From: Desulfobacca acetoxidans DSM 11109
GTDB taxonomy: Bacteria; Desulfobacterota; Desulfobaccia; Desulfobaccales; Desulfobaccaceae
Length of the DNA stretch: 64,000 nt
Direction: 5' to 3'
NCBI RefSeq assembly: GCF_000195295.1
Contig: NC_015388.1
Coordinates: 2,232,001 to 2,296,000, forward strand
Each line of letters starts with the position of its first letter. Position 1 is the first letter of the stretch. The notes under the pieces are model-generated. The model was given only the letters and a program-made list of their open reading frames with translations, was not told where the DNA came from and ran no database searches. The translations under genes were made by a program, and so were the position numbers. Below are positions 51,158 to 62,968 of the stretch, piece by piece.

Positions 51158-53188
51158 CTATTCTTCGCTTCCGCCAGCCTGCATCTCACGACGCATTTCC
51201 ATATCGAACAGAACGCGTTCACGGGCCTTATCGATACCCAAAGCAGCGCGTTTCTTGTCAATGTGGGCAATCATCTTCTTGGCTGCCAGCACCGGATCAA
51301 GCTCCAAATCCCACATACCGCCCAACTCCTCCTCTAAGCCTCTGAAAAGGTAATCGGTGAAGAGTGCAGAACCGGTGGTGGGGAAGGACCCTCCGAAGAC
51401 GGTGTAGACACCGGAGGAGACGAAGTAATGACCGATGGAGATAGCCTTCTCACTCATCCATTCGGGCGCCGCGCCGGCGGCCGGCAGGTCGCTGATGTCG
51501 GAGCCCAAACCACCGGCCTTGACGCAGGCAGTGGCCGCCATCAGGATACGGGAGTTATCCACGCAGGAGCCCATATGCAGCACCGGCGGGATGCCTACGG
51601 TTTCGCAGACCTCGGCCAAACCGGGGCCGCAATACTTTACTGCCGCCTCGGGGGTCAACAGACCTTCCTTACCCGCAGCCATAGCAGAGCAACCGGTCAC
51701 CAGGACGATGACATCGTTCTTGAGCAGTTCCTTGGTCATAGCCAGGTGGGCGCTGTCATGGGGAGTGCGGCAGTTGTTGCAGCCAACCACGCCGGCCACA
51801 CCGCGTACCCGGCCACCGATGATGTTGTCATTCAGGGTGTAGTATGAACCCCGGATTGAACCGCCCAGCAGGTACTGGATGGTCTCATAGCTGAAACCCA
51901 CCACGGTGGGATATTTAATATCCGGGATCAACACCGGCGCCCTGCGGTTGGGGAAGTTGTCAATGGCTTCCCGTACGATCTGGCGGGCGATCTCGATGGC
52001 ATGGTGCTCATCCATGGGAATGTGCATAGTTTCGCCTTCGATGCGGGCCCGGGGATCGGTGGTGATCAATTTGGTATGATAGCACTTGGCCACATTGGCC
52101 AGGGACTGCATCTCGCATTGCACATCGACCACCATGGCATCGACCGCGCCGGTGATAATAGCCAACTCCTGCTGCAGGTAGTTGCCGGCCGTGGGAATCC
52201 CATGGCGCATCAGGAGCTCATTGGCAGAACAGCACATCCCGGCCAACTGCACCCCCTTGGCGCCTTTGTTCTGGGCATACTGCACTATCTCCGGTTCCTG
52301 GGAGGCCACATAGATCATCTCCGGCAACACCGGCTCGTGCCCGTGAATGATAATGTTGACATGGTCTTCCTTCAACACCCCCAGGTTGATTTCGCCGGAG
52401 ACCGGCACGGGACAGCCGAACAGCACGTCCTGCAGGTCGGTGGAGATCATGGAACCACCCCAGCCGTCAGAGATGGCGGTGCGGGTACATTGCTTCAAGA
52501 TATTGTGATACTCCTGATCCACCCCCATGTGAGTGCGGTGCATCAGCTCGACAATCTCGATATCGCAACCTCGAGGCATCACACCCAAGTTGCGCCATAA
52601 CTCTATCCGTTTCTTGGGGGGCCGTTTGGCGGCAAAAACGAGTTCACCATCCTGTTGGCCGAACTCCACCAGGATCTTGTCGGCTAATTCTTGGGCAATG
52701 ACTTCGGTAGAACGAGACTTTTTGTCATCTCCCTCACCTTCGGTGAGAGGCACATCATAATCCCGGGCAAGCTGTTTTAACTTGCGGATATCTTTAATCT
52801 TATAACCTGGTGCCTTCCCATGCGCCACTTCCTTGAATAACTTGGCAACACCCCGGGAGTGGTCGTTGTGGGCCGCCGCCCCGCCACAGACCATGCGGGC
52901 AAAGTTACGGGCCACAATAGTTTCGGCAGTGGCCCCGCACAGGCCAACCGCCTGCTTCTTCTGTTCTTCGCCCTCTTTTGCCTTCTTCACCGGCGGTACC
53001 CGACAGGGACCTTGGGAACAGATACGGCAACAGGCACCTTCAGCCCCGATAGGACAGGGTTTCATCTTATCGGCCCGATCCCAGATAGTTTCAACTCCGG
53101 CAGCCTGAGCCTTCTTGATCATCTCAACTGTCGCCGGATCTACCGACTTGGTCGCCGGATCGAACGCTTTCGATTCCTTTTCAGCCAT
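51158..53188 (-). CDS. cooS: anaerobic carbon monoxide dehydrogenase, catalytic subunit
   Basis: A 676-aa Ni-Fe-S enzyme that interconverts CO and CO2. The N-terminal cluster cysteines are in KPCPIGAEGACCRICSQGPC (Cys45, 53, 54, 57, 62), with Cys84 later in GLCGATAETIVARN after a lysine-rich insert. ARMVCGGAAAHNDHSRGV and GVAGVVGCNNCRTPHDS belong to the C-cluster region, and the C-terminal GSCVDNSRIL segment carries another ligand. GGAGG precedes the ATG. No cooF, cooC or acs gene is adjacent, so this is a lone cooS; its electron partner and nickel loader must lie elsewhere. It may serve CO oxidation or CO2 reduction next to the Wood-Ljungdahl pathway. Confidence 0.97.
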   Translation of the reverse strand: MAEKESKAFDPATKSVDPATVEMIKKAQAAGVETIWDRADKMKPCPIGAEGACCRICSQGPCRVPPVKKAKEGEEQKKQAVGLCGATAETIVARNFARMVCGGAAAHNDHSRGVAKLFKEVAHGKAPGYKIKDIRKLKQLARDYDVPLTEGEGDDKKSRSTEVIAQELADKILVEFGQQDGELVFAAKRPPKKRIELWRNLGVMPRGCDIEIVELMHRTHMGVDQEYHNILKQCTRTAISDGWGGSMISTDLQDVLFGCPVPVSGEINLGVLKEDHVNIIIHGHEPVLPEMIYVASQEPEIVQYAQNKGAKGVQLAGMCCSANELLMRHGIPTAGNYLQQELAIITGAVDAMVVDVQCEMQSLANVAKCYHTKLITTDPRARIEGETMHIPMDEHHAIEIARQIVREAIDNFPNRRAPVLIPDIKYPTVVGFSYETIQYLLGGSIRGSYYTLNDNIIGGRVRGVAGVVGCNNCRTPHDSAHLAMTKELLKNDVIVLVTGCSAMAAGKEGLLTPEAAVKYCGPGLAEVCETVGIPPVLHMGSCVDNSRILMAATACVKAGGLGSDISDLPAAGAAPEWMSEKAISIGHYFVSSGVYTVFGGSFPTTGSALFTDYLFRGLEEELGGMWDLELDPVLAAKKMIAHIDKKRAALGIDKARERVLFDMEMRREMQAGGSEE

Positions 53189-53368: not shown

Positions 53369-54247
53369 TTAAGGAGAAACTGGCCGAATCAGCCTGAACC
53401 CGATAAATCCGTCGGTTTGGGAGGGACGAAAAGATTGGCGAGCGGCGCAACGCAATTCTCGGGCCCGGCCATACCAGGAGCCACCTCTCAGGACGCGAGA
53501 CGTCCCGGAAGCGGGTCCGGCAGGATTTTCTTTGCGGCTTTTTGTATACGAGGAGGAATGATACCAGTCCTCACACCACTCAGCCACGTTGCCGGCCATA
53601 TCATAGAGACCGAAACCATTTGGAGGAAAGCTGGCCACCGGGGCAGTATAGCGAAAGCCATCTTTATCGTAGGGGTTGGGATTGAAGCTGGCCCGAAATC
53701 GCCCTCCCTGTTCGGGAGGAGTGCTCCCCCACGGGAAAGGCTGCCCTACTAGGCCGCCCCGGGCTGCGGCCTCCCATTGGGCTTCAGTAGGAAGCATATA
53801 CTCCTCCTGGGTAATCCGGCTTAGCCACTTGGCAAAGGCGGTGGCATCATGCCAGGTAACCCCCACCACCGGCTGGTTAGGCGCGTTGAGGTTTCTATCC
53901 AGCCAATAAAGGGGTTCAGGGTGGCCAGTGGCCGCCAAAAACTCTCCATATTGGGCATTGGTAATTTCAGTAGCCGTGATGTAGAAGGGTGAGAGGTTTA
54001 CCCAATGTTGCGGTCCTTCGTCCCAATAGCGTCCCGATTCTTCAGGTGGGCTTCCCAGCAGGTAAGGTCCACCAGGGATCAGACGCAGTTGTATCCCTAA
54101 TATATTGTGGCAAGTTGGCGCTGGCGGCGGGGATGCAGCGAGTGCCAGCCTGCCGGAGGCAAGCCAGGCAGACAGACAGAAACAGATAATCAAGCAAAGG
54201 AAAAGACGTTGGGCAATCATGCTATCTTGCAGATGGGAATCAGACAT
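53369..54247 (-). CDS. secreted SUMF1/formylglycine-generating-enzyme-fold protein, catalytic cysteines absent
   Basis: A 292-aa protein with an N-terminal signal or anchor (hydrophobic RLFLCLIICFCLSAWLA) followed by a full FGE-sulfatase fold: PGGPYLLGSPPEESGRYWDEGPQH, TEITNAQYGEFL, VGVTWHDATAFAKWLS, LPTEAQWEAAARGG, GLYDMAGNVAEWCEDWY, and RVLRGGSWYGRARELRCAARQ. In true FGE the GGS segment has two catalytic cysteines before the RCAAR; here that segment is YGRAREL with none. So sulfatase activation is unlikely, and a structural or binding role in the periplasm is more likely. The start at 54247 has AAGGAA before it. It diverges from lptD. Confidence 0.85.
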   Translation of the reverse strand: MSDSHLQDSMIAQRLFLCLIICFCLSAWLASGRLALAASPPPAPTCHNILGIQLRLIPGGPYLLGSPPEESGRYWDEGPQHWVNLSPFYITATEITNAQYGEFLAATGHPEPLYWLDRNLNAPNQPVVGVTWHDATAFAKWLSRITQEEYMLPTEAQWEAAARGGLVGQPFPWGSTPPEQGGRFRASFNPNPYDKDGFRYTAPVASFPPNGFGLYDMAGNVAEWCEDWYHSSSYTKSRKENPAGPASGTSRVLRGGSWYGRARELRCAARQSFRPSQTDGFIGFRLIRPVSP

Positions 54248-54305
54248 GTTGTATTCCTTCAAGAAGAATATTTACTGCACCAGGGATATATTTTCAACCA
54301 AAGGT

Positions 54306-56639: not shown

Positions 56640-57167
56640 TCAGTTTGCCTGAATCAGATTCACCTTGAACCGACAGACCCGATCCCCCTTGGCCCAGCAG
56701 TCGATCTCTTCCACCCGGAAGTCATTGCCGGTATAGGCTTTTAGAATGCCGCCTAGGAAGCCCTCATCATAGTCACACACCGTCTCATTGGTTACCGGCA
56801 GGCCGGAGCAGTCCAAATCTTCGGCTACGGTCAGCGTCATATCCCAGGTATCGATATCCAATTCTTCCACTCGCAGGATACCGATCTTATGTTCGACCAA
56901 TTTCTCCTGCAGTTCGGTTAGAAATTTATCAAACTCTAGTTGGGTATTTAATAAATGCCGGCAGAATTCCTCCCCTGCCAAGCGCCCGGCGGCAACAAAT
57001 ATTCTTTTGGTTTCTGCCAGGCCGAACCGCGCGGTCAGAACTGTCCGCATGGTATAGAGCATCAAACGATAAACTAATACTGGCGCCATCATCCCCAGAT
57101 TGGGGCGCCCGATTTCCAGATCACCTAAGGATTCCCAATGGAAAAAAAGATGATTGGCTCCTGGCAC
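56640..57167 (-). CDS. V4R-domain protein
   Basis: A 175-aa single-domain protein. The C-terminal half matches the V4R (4-vinyl reductase) domain: VCDYDEGFLGGILKAYTGNDFRVEEIDCWAKGDRVCRFKV, with the conserved cysteine pair in that stretch. The N-terminal half begins RPNLGMMAPVLVYRLMLYT. V4R domains bind small hydrophobic ligands or tetrapyrrole precursors and are found in regulators and in bacteriochlorophyll or anaerobic aromatic pathways. Here no effector domain is fused, so the role is open. Start is GTG at 57167 with GAGGAAAGAG before it. A gap of about 240 nt without recognisable genes precedes it. Confidence 0.82.
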   Translation of the reverse strand: MPGANHLFFHWESLGDLEIGRPNLGMMAPVLVYRLMLYTMRTVLTARFGLAETKRIFVAAGRLAGEEFCRHLLNTQLEFDKFLTELQEKLVEHKIGILRVEELDIDTWDMTLTVAEDLDCSGLPVTNETVCDYDEGFLGGILKAYTGNDFRVEEIDCWAKGDRVCRFKVNLIQAN

Positions 57168-57408: not shown

Positions 57409-58299
57409 CTAAGATATTCCTCTGCCGGTCAGCAGCCGCAGGGCCTCCAGATACCTTTGCCGGGTATTGGCAATAACCTCTGGCGGGAGAGGGGGTGGCG
57501 GTGGTTGTTTATTCCAGCCAAGACCGAGCAGGTAGTCCCGTAAGTACTGCTTGTCAAAACTTTTTTGAGAGCGGCCGGGGGTATAATCGGTTAAGGGCCA
57601 GAAACGGGATGAATCTGGCGTCAGAACTTCATCGATCAGGACCAGACGGTCGCCTATAAGCCCGAATTCAAACTTGGTATCGGCGATCAAGATCCCCTTT
57701 GCTTCCGCTTCGGTGTGGGCTCGGCGATAAATCGCCAGACTGAGATCTCGTACGCGTTGGGCCAGGGTCTCGCCGATGAGGTTGATGACTGCGGTAAAGG
57801 TGATATTTTCGTCATGGCGTCCTAACTCGGCCTTGGTGGAAGGAGTGAAGATCGGCTCTGGCAAACGTTCGGATTCCTTCAATCCGGACGGCAGCTTCTG
57901 TCCGCACACCGAATTATGCTCCTGATATTCCTGCCACCCGGAGCCGGCCAGATAGCCCCGCACGATACATTCAATGGGTAGCGGCCGGGCATGGTGCGCC
58001 AACATACTGCGTCCTTGCAGGATATCGGCATATGCCTGACATTCGTTCGGAAAATCCCTGATATCAATGGAGATCAGGTGGTTCGGCGTCAGATCTCGGC
58101 TACGTTCAAACCAGTAGGCCGATATCTGGTTAAGTATCTTTCCCTTATCAGGGATAGGATCGGCCATGACTACATCAAAGGCTGAAATCCGGTCGGTGGC
58201 CACCAGTAATAAACGGCCATCGCGTAAGGTATAAACGTCCCGCACTTTACCCCGTCGCAGCGGGCCTAGTGCAGTCAACCGAGTTTCTTTAACAATCAC
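57409..58299 (-). CDS. purC: phosphoribosylaminoimidazole-succinocarboxamide synthase
   Basis: A 296-aa enzyme that joins CAIR and aspartate in purine synthesis. Landmarks: [80 protein letters not shown] and [15 protein letters not shown]. It is the longer SAICAR synthetase form. I set the start at GTG 58299, with TGAGGAAGAAG directly before it; an in-frame start at 58332 was rejected because it would run through this ribosome site. The upstream pseudokinase ends 100 nt away on the same strand, so co-transcription is possible but not certain. Confidence 0.94.
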
Positions 58300-58399
58300 A
58301 AGCTTCTTCCTCACAAAAAGGTAGGGAGCCATATCCCGCAGCTCCCGGAGTGCTTCAGAGAGAACAACCCGCTCCTCCGGGCGTGTATTCCCGGCTTCT

Positions 58400-60115
58400 C
58401 TAGTGAGGCCGGGCCACCCCGGTTTTGGCTGCGGTTTTGGGCTTTGCGGCGGTCGCTCCCTGCTGACTTTGACCGGCGGCAGGGTTAACCCAGACCTGAT
58501 AAAAAGTCTTTTTGCCTTTGACTACTTTTTTGACAATGGTCCGCTTGCCCTGTTTGCTTAATGTATTAGCGTATTTTGCAGCTTCTGCCGGTTTGTCATA
58601 GGTGGCGGCAAGTTTCATAGCGGTTTTGGGCGTTTTGACCGCCGGTTGGGCCTTAACCGGGCTTTTAGGTCTGGCCGGTGATTTAGTCGCCGTCTGGAGC
58701 GTTTTGGCTTTCGCGGCTGTAGATGCGACCGAAGGTTGGGGTTTGGTTTTTTCTACAACCGGCGCGTTCAAACTGCTACCGGGTGGAATCACCGGAGCGT
58801 GAACCGAGGCTGGCGGAGAGGTAGTACTAATCGTCGATTCGGGCTGTATTTCCTGCGGTGGTCCCGGGGAGCCAACCGGAGGAGAGGGTTTCAGCTCCAG
58901 GGGAGCCTGAATCGCCGGGGCACTATCCCGCCCCGATTCGGGCCTTTGAGCCAGTTCAACCCGAGGTTTGGGTAAAAACAATGAGCTAAGAGCGTATATT
59001 AACAGCAGCAAAGTTAGAAAACCGCCAACCCCGGCTGCCAACTGTTTGTGACGGTTGAGACGGAGCGGCTCAGGCCCCAGGTATTCCGTGAGCCGATGTT
59101 GTTGCTCCTGCAGCCAGGCCAACATTTGTTCCCAATAGCTGCGGCGGGGAATCGGTTCGGGAGCTTGCCAGTCAGAGTCAATCTCCACCACCGGCTCCGC
59201 AGCGCCGGATGGCGGCCTGGAGGCTGCCTTGGCCCCGCCAGTCACCGCAACTAAACCTTCTTCTTCCGGTCGCTTTTTACGGCTTGGGCCGGTGATAGCT
59301 AGACGCTCCCTCAGAATGGATAATTGGGATAAAAAATCTGTCGCTGCAGGGAAGCGTTTTCCGGGATCGGGATGCAGTCCCCGCAAGAAAAGCGGCTGTA
59401 AACTTTCGGGAATTTTCTCTAAATCCAATGGCTGTTGCGCCGCTTGATAAGGCATAATTTCATCGGTTAGCATAGGAAAGGGTAAAGCACCGGTTAACAT
59501 CCGATACCCGATAACGCTTAAAGAAAAAATATTGCTAGCCGCCAATGGCTTACGCCCCTGCCAGACTTCAGGAGCGATATAAGCCTTGAGGTCCGGGTAA
59601 GCCTGAATCTCTGCCAGTTCGGTGGGAAAGGCAAGATTAATGATTTTTATCCCTTCGGTAGCCGAAACCAGTACCTGCTGTGGATTGAAATTTTGATGAA
59701 TAACTCCCTGTTTATGGATATAAGCAACACCTTGGGCCAATACTTCAATAAAATAGAGGGAATCATTAATCGTCAGGGCCTCGCTCTGGCCCAATAGCTC
59801 CCATAAGGAATTGCCGGCAAAGGGTTCCTGAACCAGGAATACCCCCTCTTCAGTCTCATCTAAGTGATGTATCCCCAGAATCTGGGGATGATGTAGCTTC
59901 ATTCCCGTCAGGGCTTCGCGGCGATAATATTCTAGTAAGCGATCGAATTCCGGCACTTCGTTGGACAGACATTTCAAGCCCACTTCCACGTCCAGTGCCT
60001 GATCCCTGGCCAACATTACTTTACCGTGAGCTTCCGAACGCATTACCCGGATAAGTTCATACCGGCGCCCGATCACCATACCGGGCACAAAACTGCCTTG
60101 GCCTTGTGTATCCAT
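58400..60115 (-). CDS. membrane pseudokinase with C-terminal SPOR-like domain
   Basis: A 571-aa protein. Residues about 18-265 have the protein kinase fold: Lys48 in VGLKCL, the helix-C glutamate (Glu67), and the APE motif at 181-183. But the catalytic loop HRDxKPxN is HQNFNPQQ (residues 140-147), losing the catalytic Asp and Lys, and DFG is NLA (160-162). The Gly-rich loop is also poor (MRSEAHGKV). So catalysis is very unlikely. A transmembrane helix (about 358-381) is followed by a Pro/Ala/Lys-rich linker and a SPOR-like tail ([20 protein letters not shown], then [10 protein letters not shown]). It may read peptidoglycan or an outside signal and pass it to a partner by binding. Confidence 0.85.
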
Positions 60116-60541: not shown

Positions 60542-62968
60542 TTATGGTTTTTGCGGTTCTTTGCCGGACTTGATTTCAAGCAACAGGGTCTCGGCAGCGG
60601 CTCGTTCAGGAAATTTCACCTTAATCTCGAGGAGCTTTTCCAGCGTGCCGATGGCCTTTTCCTTGTCCCCCAACTTGGCGAGGCAGTAAGCCAGATGATA
60701 TTTGAGAGCGGGGTTATTTGGGGCAATTTCCGTTGCCTGTTCCAGATAAGTGACCGCCTGGGGAAAATCTCCCTGTTGGCACAAAATCCAGCCTTTGGTA
60801 TCCAGGATATTGGGATCTTCCGGTGATTCTTCCAGAGCCTCGGAAACCAAGGTTAGGGCTTTCTGATAATTTTCCGGAGACTGCAGATGATTCGCCAATA
60901 AATAGGCCAGATTGTTCTTGGCCAAAATTGGAAACAGATTTCTTTCGATCATGCGATTATAAACTTCCGACGCTTTATTATAGTCCTTCAGCCGTTCATA
61001 GAACATTGCCTGTGCCAGGATATAAAACGGCGGGGCCTTGGGATCATTGGTCTTGGCCTCGAGTTCCATCTTCACTTTGTCCACATCCGGATTCTGTTGG
61101 TAGGCAATGACTAACAGTCTGAGGGCTGACAACTGCCGGGGATTGATGGTAAAAGCCTTTTCCAAAGCTTGCGCGGCCTCATCAGACTTCTTTTGTGCCA
61201 GAAAAATTTCCCCCAGCATCTGCAAAATCACGGGGTTGTTCGGACTACGGGCCAGACTCTGGCGCAACACTTCGACGGCCTGAACAGGTTTATCCTGTTC
61301 CAGATAAATGGCAGTCAGTAATTGCAATCCTTTAATAAAATTTGGATCTTGCTCCAATGCCTGTTTCAGGTGTTTAACAGCCTGATCAGTCTGCTTCTGC
61401 TTCAGCTCCATACGGGCCAGTTCGAAGTAGCCTATCGGATTTTTTGGATCTAGCGCTATCACCTTCTGGAAGGTGGCGCGCGCCTTGGCCAGATCTTCCT
61501 TGGCTAGATACACTTCCCCCAGCGCCAGCAGGTTGAACAGGTCTTTTTCATTGTATCGCAAATATCCCTGGATAGTTTGGATGGCACCGTCATAATCCTT
61601 GTTTCGCAGGTACAGGCCATAGAGAAACCGCCTGGCTTCCAGGTAATCTGCCTTCAATTCCAGGGCCTTTTTAGCCTGCTCCTTGGCCTGCTCCAACTCA
61701 TTGTTCACCAGATGGGCCTGGGCTAATAACAGGCGAGCTTCCGGATTTTGGGGCTGATCTTGCGTGATGAGGCGGAAATTGTTTACTGCCGCCAATCCAT
61801 CTTTCTTGGACAGGGCCAGCAGCCCCATGGTGCGAGTGGCAACCATGTCTTTGGGGTTTTCTTTCAATACTTCTGAAGCCAATTTTTCTGCCTCTGCCAC
61901 CCGCCCCCGACTGGCGTGCACCATTGCCATCCGACCTTTGGCCTGCAACCCTGATGGCCCGGTGGGGTCACGATCGACTATCTCTTGCAGTGTCTTCAGC
62001 CCCCGGCCTTCTTGTCGGCGGCTGAGGTAAAAATCGGCCAGGGCAAATCGGGCTGCATTATTATCAGGATGTTTGGCGGCAAAATCCTTTAAAACCTGTT
62101 CACCTTCTTTAACTTTGCCTCTACCTACCAGGAATTTGGTCAGGGCTACGGCGTGTTTCTCGTTATCCGGTTCCAACCCTAACTGCTGATGCAACGCCTG
62201 CTCGGCCTTATCCAATTGTCCTGCCAAAATGTAGTGTCGGGCCAATTCCGACTGCAGGCTGGCTTTTTGGGGCTCTAATTTTACTGCTTCGAGAAAATAC
62301 TTCTCGGCCTCGGGAAATTGTTTTTGCGCATCGGCCACCCGTCCCCGCGCCAGGAGGAGTTCCTCACTGTCGGGATTGGCCTTAATCCCTTCCTCCAATA
62401 TGGCAACGGCGCGCTCCAGGTTCTTTCGGTTGGATTCCATCTGCGCCTGGATGAGATAGACCTCATATTTTTTCGGGTCTAATTGCTTGGCTTCCTGCAA
62501 TTTTTCTATGGCAGCCTCCAGTTTTCCTTGTGCCGCCGCTAAAGAGGCCGCCAACAGCAAAACGTCTGAGTTCTTGGGCGCCAACTCCAGAGCTGTTTTC
62601 AACCGGGCTTCGGCCTCGTCTAACCTCTTACCTGACAGATAAATCCGGCCCAACAATATTTGGGCCTCCAGTAATTTTGGGTCCAGCTCCGCTGCTTGTG
62701 ACAAGGCGCCAAAAGCTCCTCGATAATTTTGCAGTTTTATTTCGGTCTTGGCCACCCACAGGAAGGATTCAGCATATTTAGGGTCTATCTGCACAGCATT
62801 TTTAAACTGTAACCGGGCGCGTACATAATCGCCCTTGTCATACAATTCCTTGCCCTCTTTTAAAAACTTATCCCTCTTTTCCTCCATAGAGGCGCAGCCC
62901 AAAAAACTTCCGAAAATCATTACCGCGGCCAAAGCCAGCCAGAACACCCGCCATTGGTTTTCTCTCAT
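60542..62968 (-). CDS. large TPR-repeat lipoprotein (PrsT-like)
   Basis: An 808-aa protein with a lipoprotein signal: a hydrophobic helix then FLGC-AS, with the lipid cysteine near residue 25. The rest is TPR repeats, at least fifteen by eye (for example KDYDGAIQTIQGYLRYNEKD and AKARATFQKVIALDPKNPIG). The start EEKRDKFLKEGKELYDKGDY and then ARLQFKNAVQIDPK is like the PrsT lipoproteins of exosortase/exopolysaccharide systems, but no exosortase gene or PEP-CTERM protein is seen in this window. It would act as a periplasmic or outer-membrane scaffold. It is a single-gene unit with its own terminator. Confidence 0.88.
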   Translation of the reverse strand: MRENQWRVFWLALAAVMIFGSFLGCASMEEKRDKFLKEGKELYDKGDYVRARLQFKNAVQIDPKYAESFLWVAKTEIKLQNYRGAFGALSQAAELDPKLLEAQILLGRIYLSGKRLDEAEARLKTALELAPKNSDVLLLAASLAAAQGKLEAAIEKLQEAKQLDPKKYEVYLIQAQMESNRKNLERAVAILEEGIKANPDSEELLLARGRVADAQKQFPEAEKYFLEAVKLEPQKASLQSELARHYILAGQLDKAEQALHQQLGLEPDNEKHAVALTKFLVGRGKVKEGEQVLKDFAAKHPDNNAARFALADFYLSRRQEGRGLKTLQEIVDRDPTGPSGLQAKGRMAMVHASRGRVAEAEKLASEVLKENPKDMVATRTMGLLALSKKDGLAAVNNFRLITQDQPQNPEARLLLAQAHLVNNELEQAKEQAKKALELKADYLEARRFLYGLYLRNKDYDGAIQTIQGYLRYNEKDLFNLLALGEVYLAKEDLAKARATFQKVIALDPKNPIGYFELARMELKQKQTDQAVKHLKQALEQDPNFIKGLQLLTAIYLEQDKPVQAVEVLRQSLARSPNNPVILQMLGEIFLAQKKSDEAAQALEKAFTINPRQLSALRLLVIAYQQNPDVDKVKMELEAKTNDPKAPPFYILAQAMFYERLKDYNKASEVYNRMIERNLFPILAKNNLAYLLANHLQSPENYQKALTLVSEALEESPEDPNILDTKGWILCQQGDFPQAVTYLEQATEIAPNNPALKYHLAYCLAKLGDKEKAIGTLEKLLEIKVKFPERAAAETLLLEIKSGKEPQKP

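Follow-up and report, generated by a model that had tools for sequence, protein, structure and literature searches.

Domain layout and gene neighborhood

The window analyzed here, a stretch of 64,000 nucleotides from Desulfobacca acetoxidans DSM 11109 (contig NC_015388.1), carries on its reverse strand a gene for a protein that combines a pseudokinase domain, a transmembrane helix and a C-terminal segment derived from a SPOR domain. The features of the locus are the following:

58400..60115 (-), whole open reading frame of 571 residues: pseudokinase, transmembrane helix, linker and half of a SPOR domain
59294..60076 (-), pseudokinase domain, residues 14–274, from Pfam, the AlphaFold2 model and dN/dS
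59681..59698 (-), HQNFNP replacing HRDxKP, residues 140–145; catalytic Asp absent in 27/27 orthologs
59630..59638 (-), NLA replacing DFG, residues 160–162; Asn160 invariant in 23 aligned orthologs
58973..59029 (-), single transmembrane helix, residues 363–381; hydropathy 2.2 over 19 residues, next peak 1.15
58619..58960 (-), Pro/Ala-rich disordered linker, residues 386–499; pLDDT mostly below 50
58481..58618 (-), SPOR-derived segment, residues 500–545; β-α-β-β only, the complete SPOR domain being found in the sister genus and the sister family
57409..58332 (-), purC (SAICAR synthetase), directly downstream of the pseudokinase gene

Position, strand and length of the reading frame agree with the initial annotation, and the kinase fold and the transmembrane helix proposed there both hold. 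Indeed, the Pfam Pkinase profile (PF00069) matches residues 30–256 with an E value of 5.9e-24, and in an AlphaFold2 model of the window protein, built from 23 orthologs, the kinase part reaches a pLDDT of about 90 and has PknA and PknB as its best structural matches (Z scores of 28.9 and 28.2; PknA over 259 residues with an rmsd of 2.6), so that both the profile and the bilobal fold place it within the Hanks-type Ser/Thr kinase fold. The remainder of the model comprises a helix (residues 355–380), long linkers of low confidence and a β-α-β-β unit (residues 501–543) that is also modeled with confidence. The predicted transmembrane helix (about residues 363–381) has a mean hydropathy of 2.2. Every ortholog displays one main hydrophobic peak between the kinase and SPOR parts, and lysine and arginine are commoner on the kinase side of this peak in most of them, which by the positive-inside rule suggests that the kinase domain is cytosolic and the SPOR-derived domain periplasmic. 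Neither PASTA repeats nor an MviN domain were found in the protein with Pfam, and its score against the PASTA kinase model NF033483 is 102 bits for a cut-off of 450.

The purC gene is the next gene downstream, on the same strand, in all 18 orthologous loci where the contig extends that far, and the two genes are therefore likely to share one transcription unit. This neighbor tells little about function and gives no hint of an envelope role. Besides purC, no neighbor is common to both families of the order, and no division gene occurs among the scanned open reading frames of the window. Most sister-family genomes have a divergent CDP-alcohol phosphatidyltransferase-like gene upstream of the pseudokinase gene, and the six genomes of the Desulfobacca family other than that of the window have a histone-deacetylase-like gene there (loci L068–L087, named by eye). 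In the window itself, the gene just upstream (60542–62968, reverse strand) encodes an 808-residue TPR protein scoring 370.7 bits (cut-off 312.2) against the NCBIfam model for PrsT, a TPR protein belonging to XrtA/PEP-CTERM exosortase systems; this gene is not kept beside the pseudokinase gene in relatives. A 175-residue V4R-domain protein (56640–57167, reverse strand), similar to the MsvR sensory region (71.6 bits, cut-off 220), is kept beside purC and the pseudokinase gene within the genus. The genes for a Prismane/CO dehydrogenase-type protein (51161–53188) and an FGE-sulfatase-domain protein (53372–54262), both on the reverse strand, adjoin LptD.

Loss of catalytic residues and conservation within Desulfobaccales

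Direct reading of the window protein reveals the substitutions that had been described: HRD is replaced by H140-Q141-N142, the lysine of the catalytic loop by N144 and DFG by N160-L161-A162, the whole catalytic loop being HQNFNPQQ instead of HRDxKPxN. The Gly-rich loop is missing, with 26-RSEAHG-31 at its place, and the aspartate of subdomain IX is changed to asparagine (N195); the VAIK lysine (K48) and the glutamate of helix αC (E67) are kept. The protein thus lacks the HRD aspartate, the catalytic-loop lysine, the DFG aspartate and the Gly-rich loop of an active Ser/Thr kinase, and it qualifies as a pseudokinase, defined by the loss of at least one of the VAIK lysine, the HRD aspartate and the DFG aspartate, since two of the three are absent and only the VAIK lysine is retained.

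Orthologs were identified in 27 of the 29 genomes of the order Desulfobaccales, over 11 genera; in one of the other two the match is a different kinase (G010), and the second has no match (G016). Twenty-three orthologs are sufficiently complete to be aligned, the other four being cut by contig ends. The reading frame is open in all complete copies, and a scan of the genome contigs recovered one ortholog only. Relatives keep the substitutions: both the HRD and the DFG aspartates are missing in 27/27 orthologs, which takes these changes far beyond chance. Among the aligned sequences, Asn160 (the DFG aspartate) and Asn195 (the subdomain IX aspartate) are invariant and Ala162 is nearly so, whereas the position of the HRD aspartate varies across the family (N, S, A, F, G, T). 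Lys48 is invariant as well, Glu67 is found in 20 of the 23 and is replaced by alanine in the three aligned members of one genus, and an invariant glutamate (Glu28) occupies the former Gly-rich loop, where the phosphates would lie.

Estimated by the Nei-Gojobori method in eight close ortholog pairs, dN/dS is 0.09–0.18 for the kinase part and 0.11–1.17 for the SPOR part, the latter drifting faster. The pseudokinase domain is under strong purifying selection, and the family is one of maintained pseudokinases, not a decaying gene. As the catalytic residues are lost family-wide while dN/dS is low, the kinase fold is kept for a function in which they are dispensable.

Within the sampled genomes of the phylum, the family is confined to this order. 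When an ortholog was used as query against 297 genomes of the phylum, orthologs within the order were recovered with E values between 2e-58 and 6e-159. Outside the order the top match was a generic kinase (4.6e-28), and no ortholog was found there in this sample. A search of 395 genomes with the SPOR profile gave as best match outside the order a 251-residue open reading frame (1.3e-17), and six larger SPOR proteins contain, according to Pfam, no kinase domain but peptidase S11, secretin, AAA, TPR or nothing else. The phylum might also have contained a relative joining an active kinase to SPOR; this was considered and rejected, the 19 best readable kinase matches outside the order being devoid of a SPOR domain. 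When 34 SPOR loci from the phylum sample were searched by blastp with kinase queries, this yielded five matches outside the family on SPOR-bearing reading frames. Four of these are too short (about 220–274 residues) for an added kinase domain and the fifth, of 540 residues, consists of TPR and SPOR according to Pfam; we attribute all five to the SPOR part of the queries, which were full-length.

The D. acetoxidans genome contains only two kinases besides the pseudokinase, and both keep HRD and DFG/DYG. Loci L002 and L034 encode proteins whose N-terminal half is receiver-like and PAS-like (read by eye) and whose C-terminus is an intact kinase. Most Desulfobaccales genomes contain similar kinases of comparable length, and a kinase of this type is a candidate for the active partner of the pseudokinase.

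The SPOR-derived segment

The C-terminal segment had been annotated as SPOR-like, a label that is right by descent although the window protein itself falls below the Pfam threshold (PF05036, residues 504–551, 15.3 bits for a gathering cut-off of 21, E = 0.025). Indeed, PF05036 matches 20 of the 23 aligned orthologs, with a best E value of 8.9e-16, and the complete domain is present in orthologs of the sister genus and the sister family. In the ortholog at locus L025 (1.1e-14, 54.9 bits), the AlphaFold2 model of the domain has the full β-α-β-β-α-β fold and superimposes with a Z score of 10.5 on Pseudomonas aeruginosa RlpA (6i05) and Bacillus subtilis CwlC (1x60); among the orthologs, a score of 26 bits is obtained with Escherichia coli FtsN. 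The low score of the window protein stems from the loss of half of the domain in its genus: all four Desulfobacca proteins stop after the third strand, the second helix and the last strand being gone. A frameshift hiding the second half was ruled out, as the other two frames at the 3' end do not encode it and only 67 bp separate the gene from purC; the half is thus truly lost.

In RlpA, the glycan is contacted by Gln270, the highly conserved contact, and by a patch formed by Arg302/309/311, with a contribution from the backbone (PMC6895207). We compared these positions, after alignment to the family profile, between the 23 family members and, from elsewhere in the phylum, 32 SPOR domains picked by their similarity to the family profile, a choice that should make the contrast conservative. 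The residue equivalent to Gln270 is a glutamine in 1/23 family members versus 27/32 other domains (p 1e-9), and the one equivalent to Arg309 is basic in 0/23 versus 23/32 (p 2e-8), both p values overstating the significance because family members are related and not independent. At the Gln270 position, 22 of the 23 members have Leu, Val, Ile or Pro. The Arg311 equivalent is basic in 8/23 versus 21/32, and an aromatic residue at the Phe274 position is kept in 23/23. The family thus lacks the combination of Gln270 and basic patch by which RlpA binds glycan. Some glycan binding may persist in family SPOR domains, since the contact is partly made by the backbone and the aromatic residue is always present. 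Sensing of denuded peptidoglycan is nevertheless doubtful in D. acetoxidans, given the replacement of the Gln270 and Arg309 equivalents and, in this species, the lack of half of the domain.

Proposed function and comparison with known systems

We favor, with moderate confidence, the view that the protein is an order-specific pseudokinase scaffold of the inner membrane whose SPOR domain has been repurposed or is degenerate. The cytosolic kinase fold would be unable to transfer phosphate in the usual way, having no catalytic aspartate, no metal-binding aspartate and no Gly-rich loop, and would most likely dock a cytosolic partner, either an active kinase or a protein of envelope synthesis or division, through a conserved surface, an example being the GSLPYPLTFDEPFPYR motif that sister-family members carry in the C-lobe. 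The linker and the SPOR-derived domain would extend into the periplasm, where the latter would probably help to place or tune the complex by a contact with the wall or with another protein that differs from the standard Gln/Arg grip on denuded glycan. The initial annotation had proposed a wall-sensing protein that signals by binding. Signaling by binding stands as the most likely reading, in agreement with a conserved pseudokinase that does not use canonical phosphotransfer, is tethered to the membrane and has its SPOR-derived domain on the opposite face, and it is the sensing of the denuded wall through SPOR that the lost Gln/Arg residues and the half domain weaken. Two bacterial precedents exist, the membrane pseudokinases MviN and EssB/YukC, both of which act by recruiting partners (PMC12599244). 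We also tentatively consider a double pseudo-receptor, in which a kinase and a SPOR fold, both without their signature residues, would be joined across the membrane in one order-specific family and would connect periplasm and cytosol without catalysis, perhaps with a new ligand for SPOR.

Other explanations were weighed against the same data. A sensor of denuded septal peptidoglycan, with a SPOR domain that binds glycan normally and a pseudokinase that relays the signal to a partner, would agree with the SPOR fold confirmed in orthologs, the aromatic residue at position 274, the topology and the importance of backbone contacts in RlpA (PMC6895207), but it appears rather unlikely in view of the family-wide loss of the Gln270 and Arg309 equivalents and of the halved domain that all four genomes of the window genus share. 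A further possibility is that ATP is held by Lys48 and Glu67 in the absence of the usual metal site, the protein being a nucleotide-dependent conformational switch or an enzyme with a reaction other than protein phosphotransfer. Nucleotide binding or a non-canonical activity would be compatible with the invariant VAIK lysine and the mostly kept αC glutamate, and SidJ and SelO are examples of repurposed kinase folds (PMC12599244); this possibility is nonetheless improbable, as the Gly-rich loop is replaced and an invariant Glu28 stands at the phosphate site, the DFG aspartate is an asparagine in all members and one genus has lost the αC glutamate.

Decay into a non-functional gene could be suspected from the SPOR part, given its erosion in the window genus and its more rapid drift (dN/dS 0.1 to 1.2) compared with the kinase part. 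Open frames in all complete copies, presence in 27/29 genomes of the order and the low dN/dS of the kinase part, which contradicts decay of the pseudokinase domain, make it a most improbable explanation. A sequencing error or a genome-wide decay was ruled out by the 27/29 genomes, the dN/dS values and the two other kinases of the genome, whose motifs are intact.

Both pseudokinases and SPOR proteins are known as such, and their fusion with both signatures lost appears undescribed in the literature searched, in which, including a 2025 family review, no bacterial pseudokinase with a SPOR domain was found. To our knowledge, bacterial pseudokinases are largely unstudied. A dead kinase that is strongly selected throughout an order, and that has just two other kinases beside it in the genome, offers a compact test of pseudokinase roles; moreover, the SPOR domains of the family naturally lack the conserved glutamine that binds glycan and could reveal other ligands of this fold.

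The protein shares features with several known systems. The MviN (MurJ) pseudokinase of Mycobacterium tuberculosis (ActPs3) is also membrane-linked, has a carbohydrate-binding-type domain, acts by binding and is linked to the cell wall, but it is actinobacterial, fused to MviN, has lost the VAIK lysine (VALT) and has its activation loop deleted (PMC12599244), whereas the window protein has no MviN part, carries a SPOR-derived C-terminal domain and keeps Lys48, whose invariance sets the family apart from ActPs3. EssB/YukC of type VII secretion is likewise a membrane pseudokinase with a single transmembrane helix and a scaffold function, in a different system, with different motifs and no SPOR domain. 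The SPOR proteins FtsN, DamX, DedD and RlpA resemble it in their membrane anchor, disordered linker and C-terminal SPOR fold; they have no kinase fold, and their Gln270 and Arg309 equivalents are replaced in the window family. Finally, the PASTA kinases (PknB, Stk1, StkP) possess the same succession of N-terminal kinase fold, one transmembrane helix and C-terminal wall-type domain, and PknA/PknB are the nearest solved structures to the kinase fold of the window protein; in these kinases, however, the active site is intact and followed by PASTA repeats, whereas in the window protein it is lost and a SPOR-derived domain takes their place.
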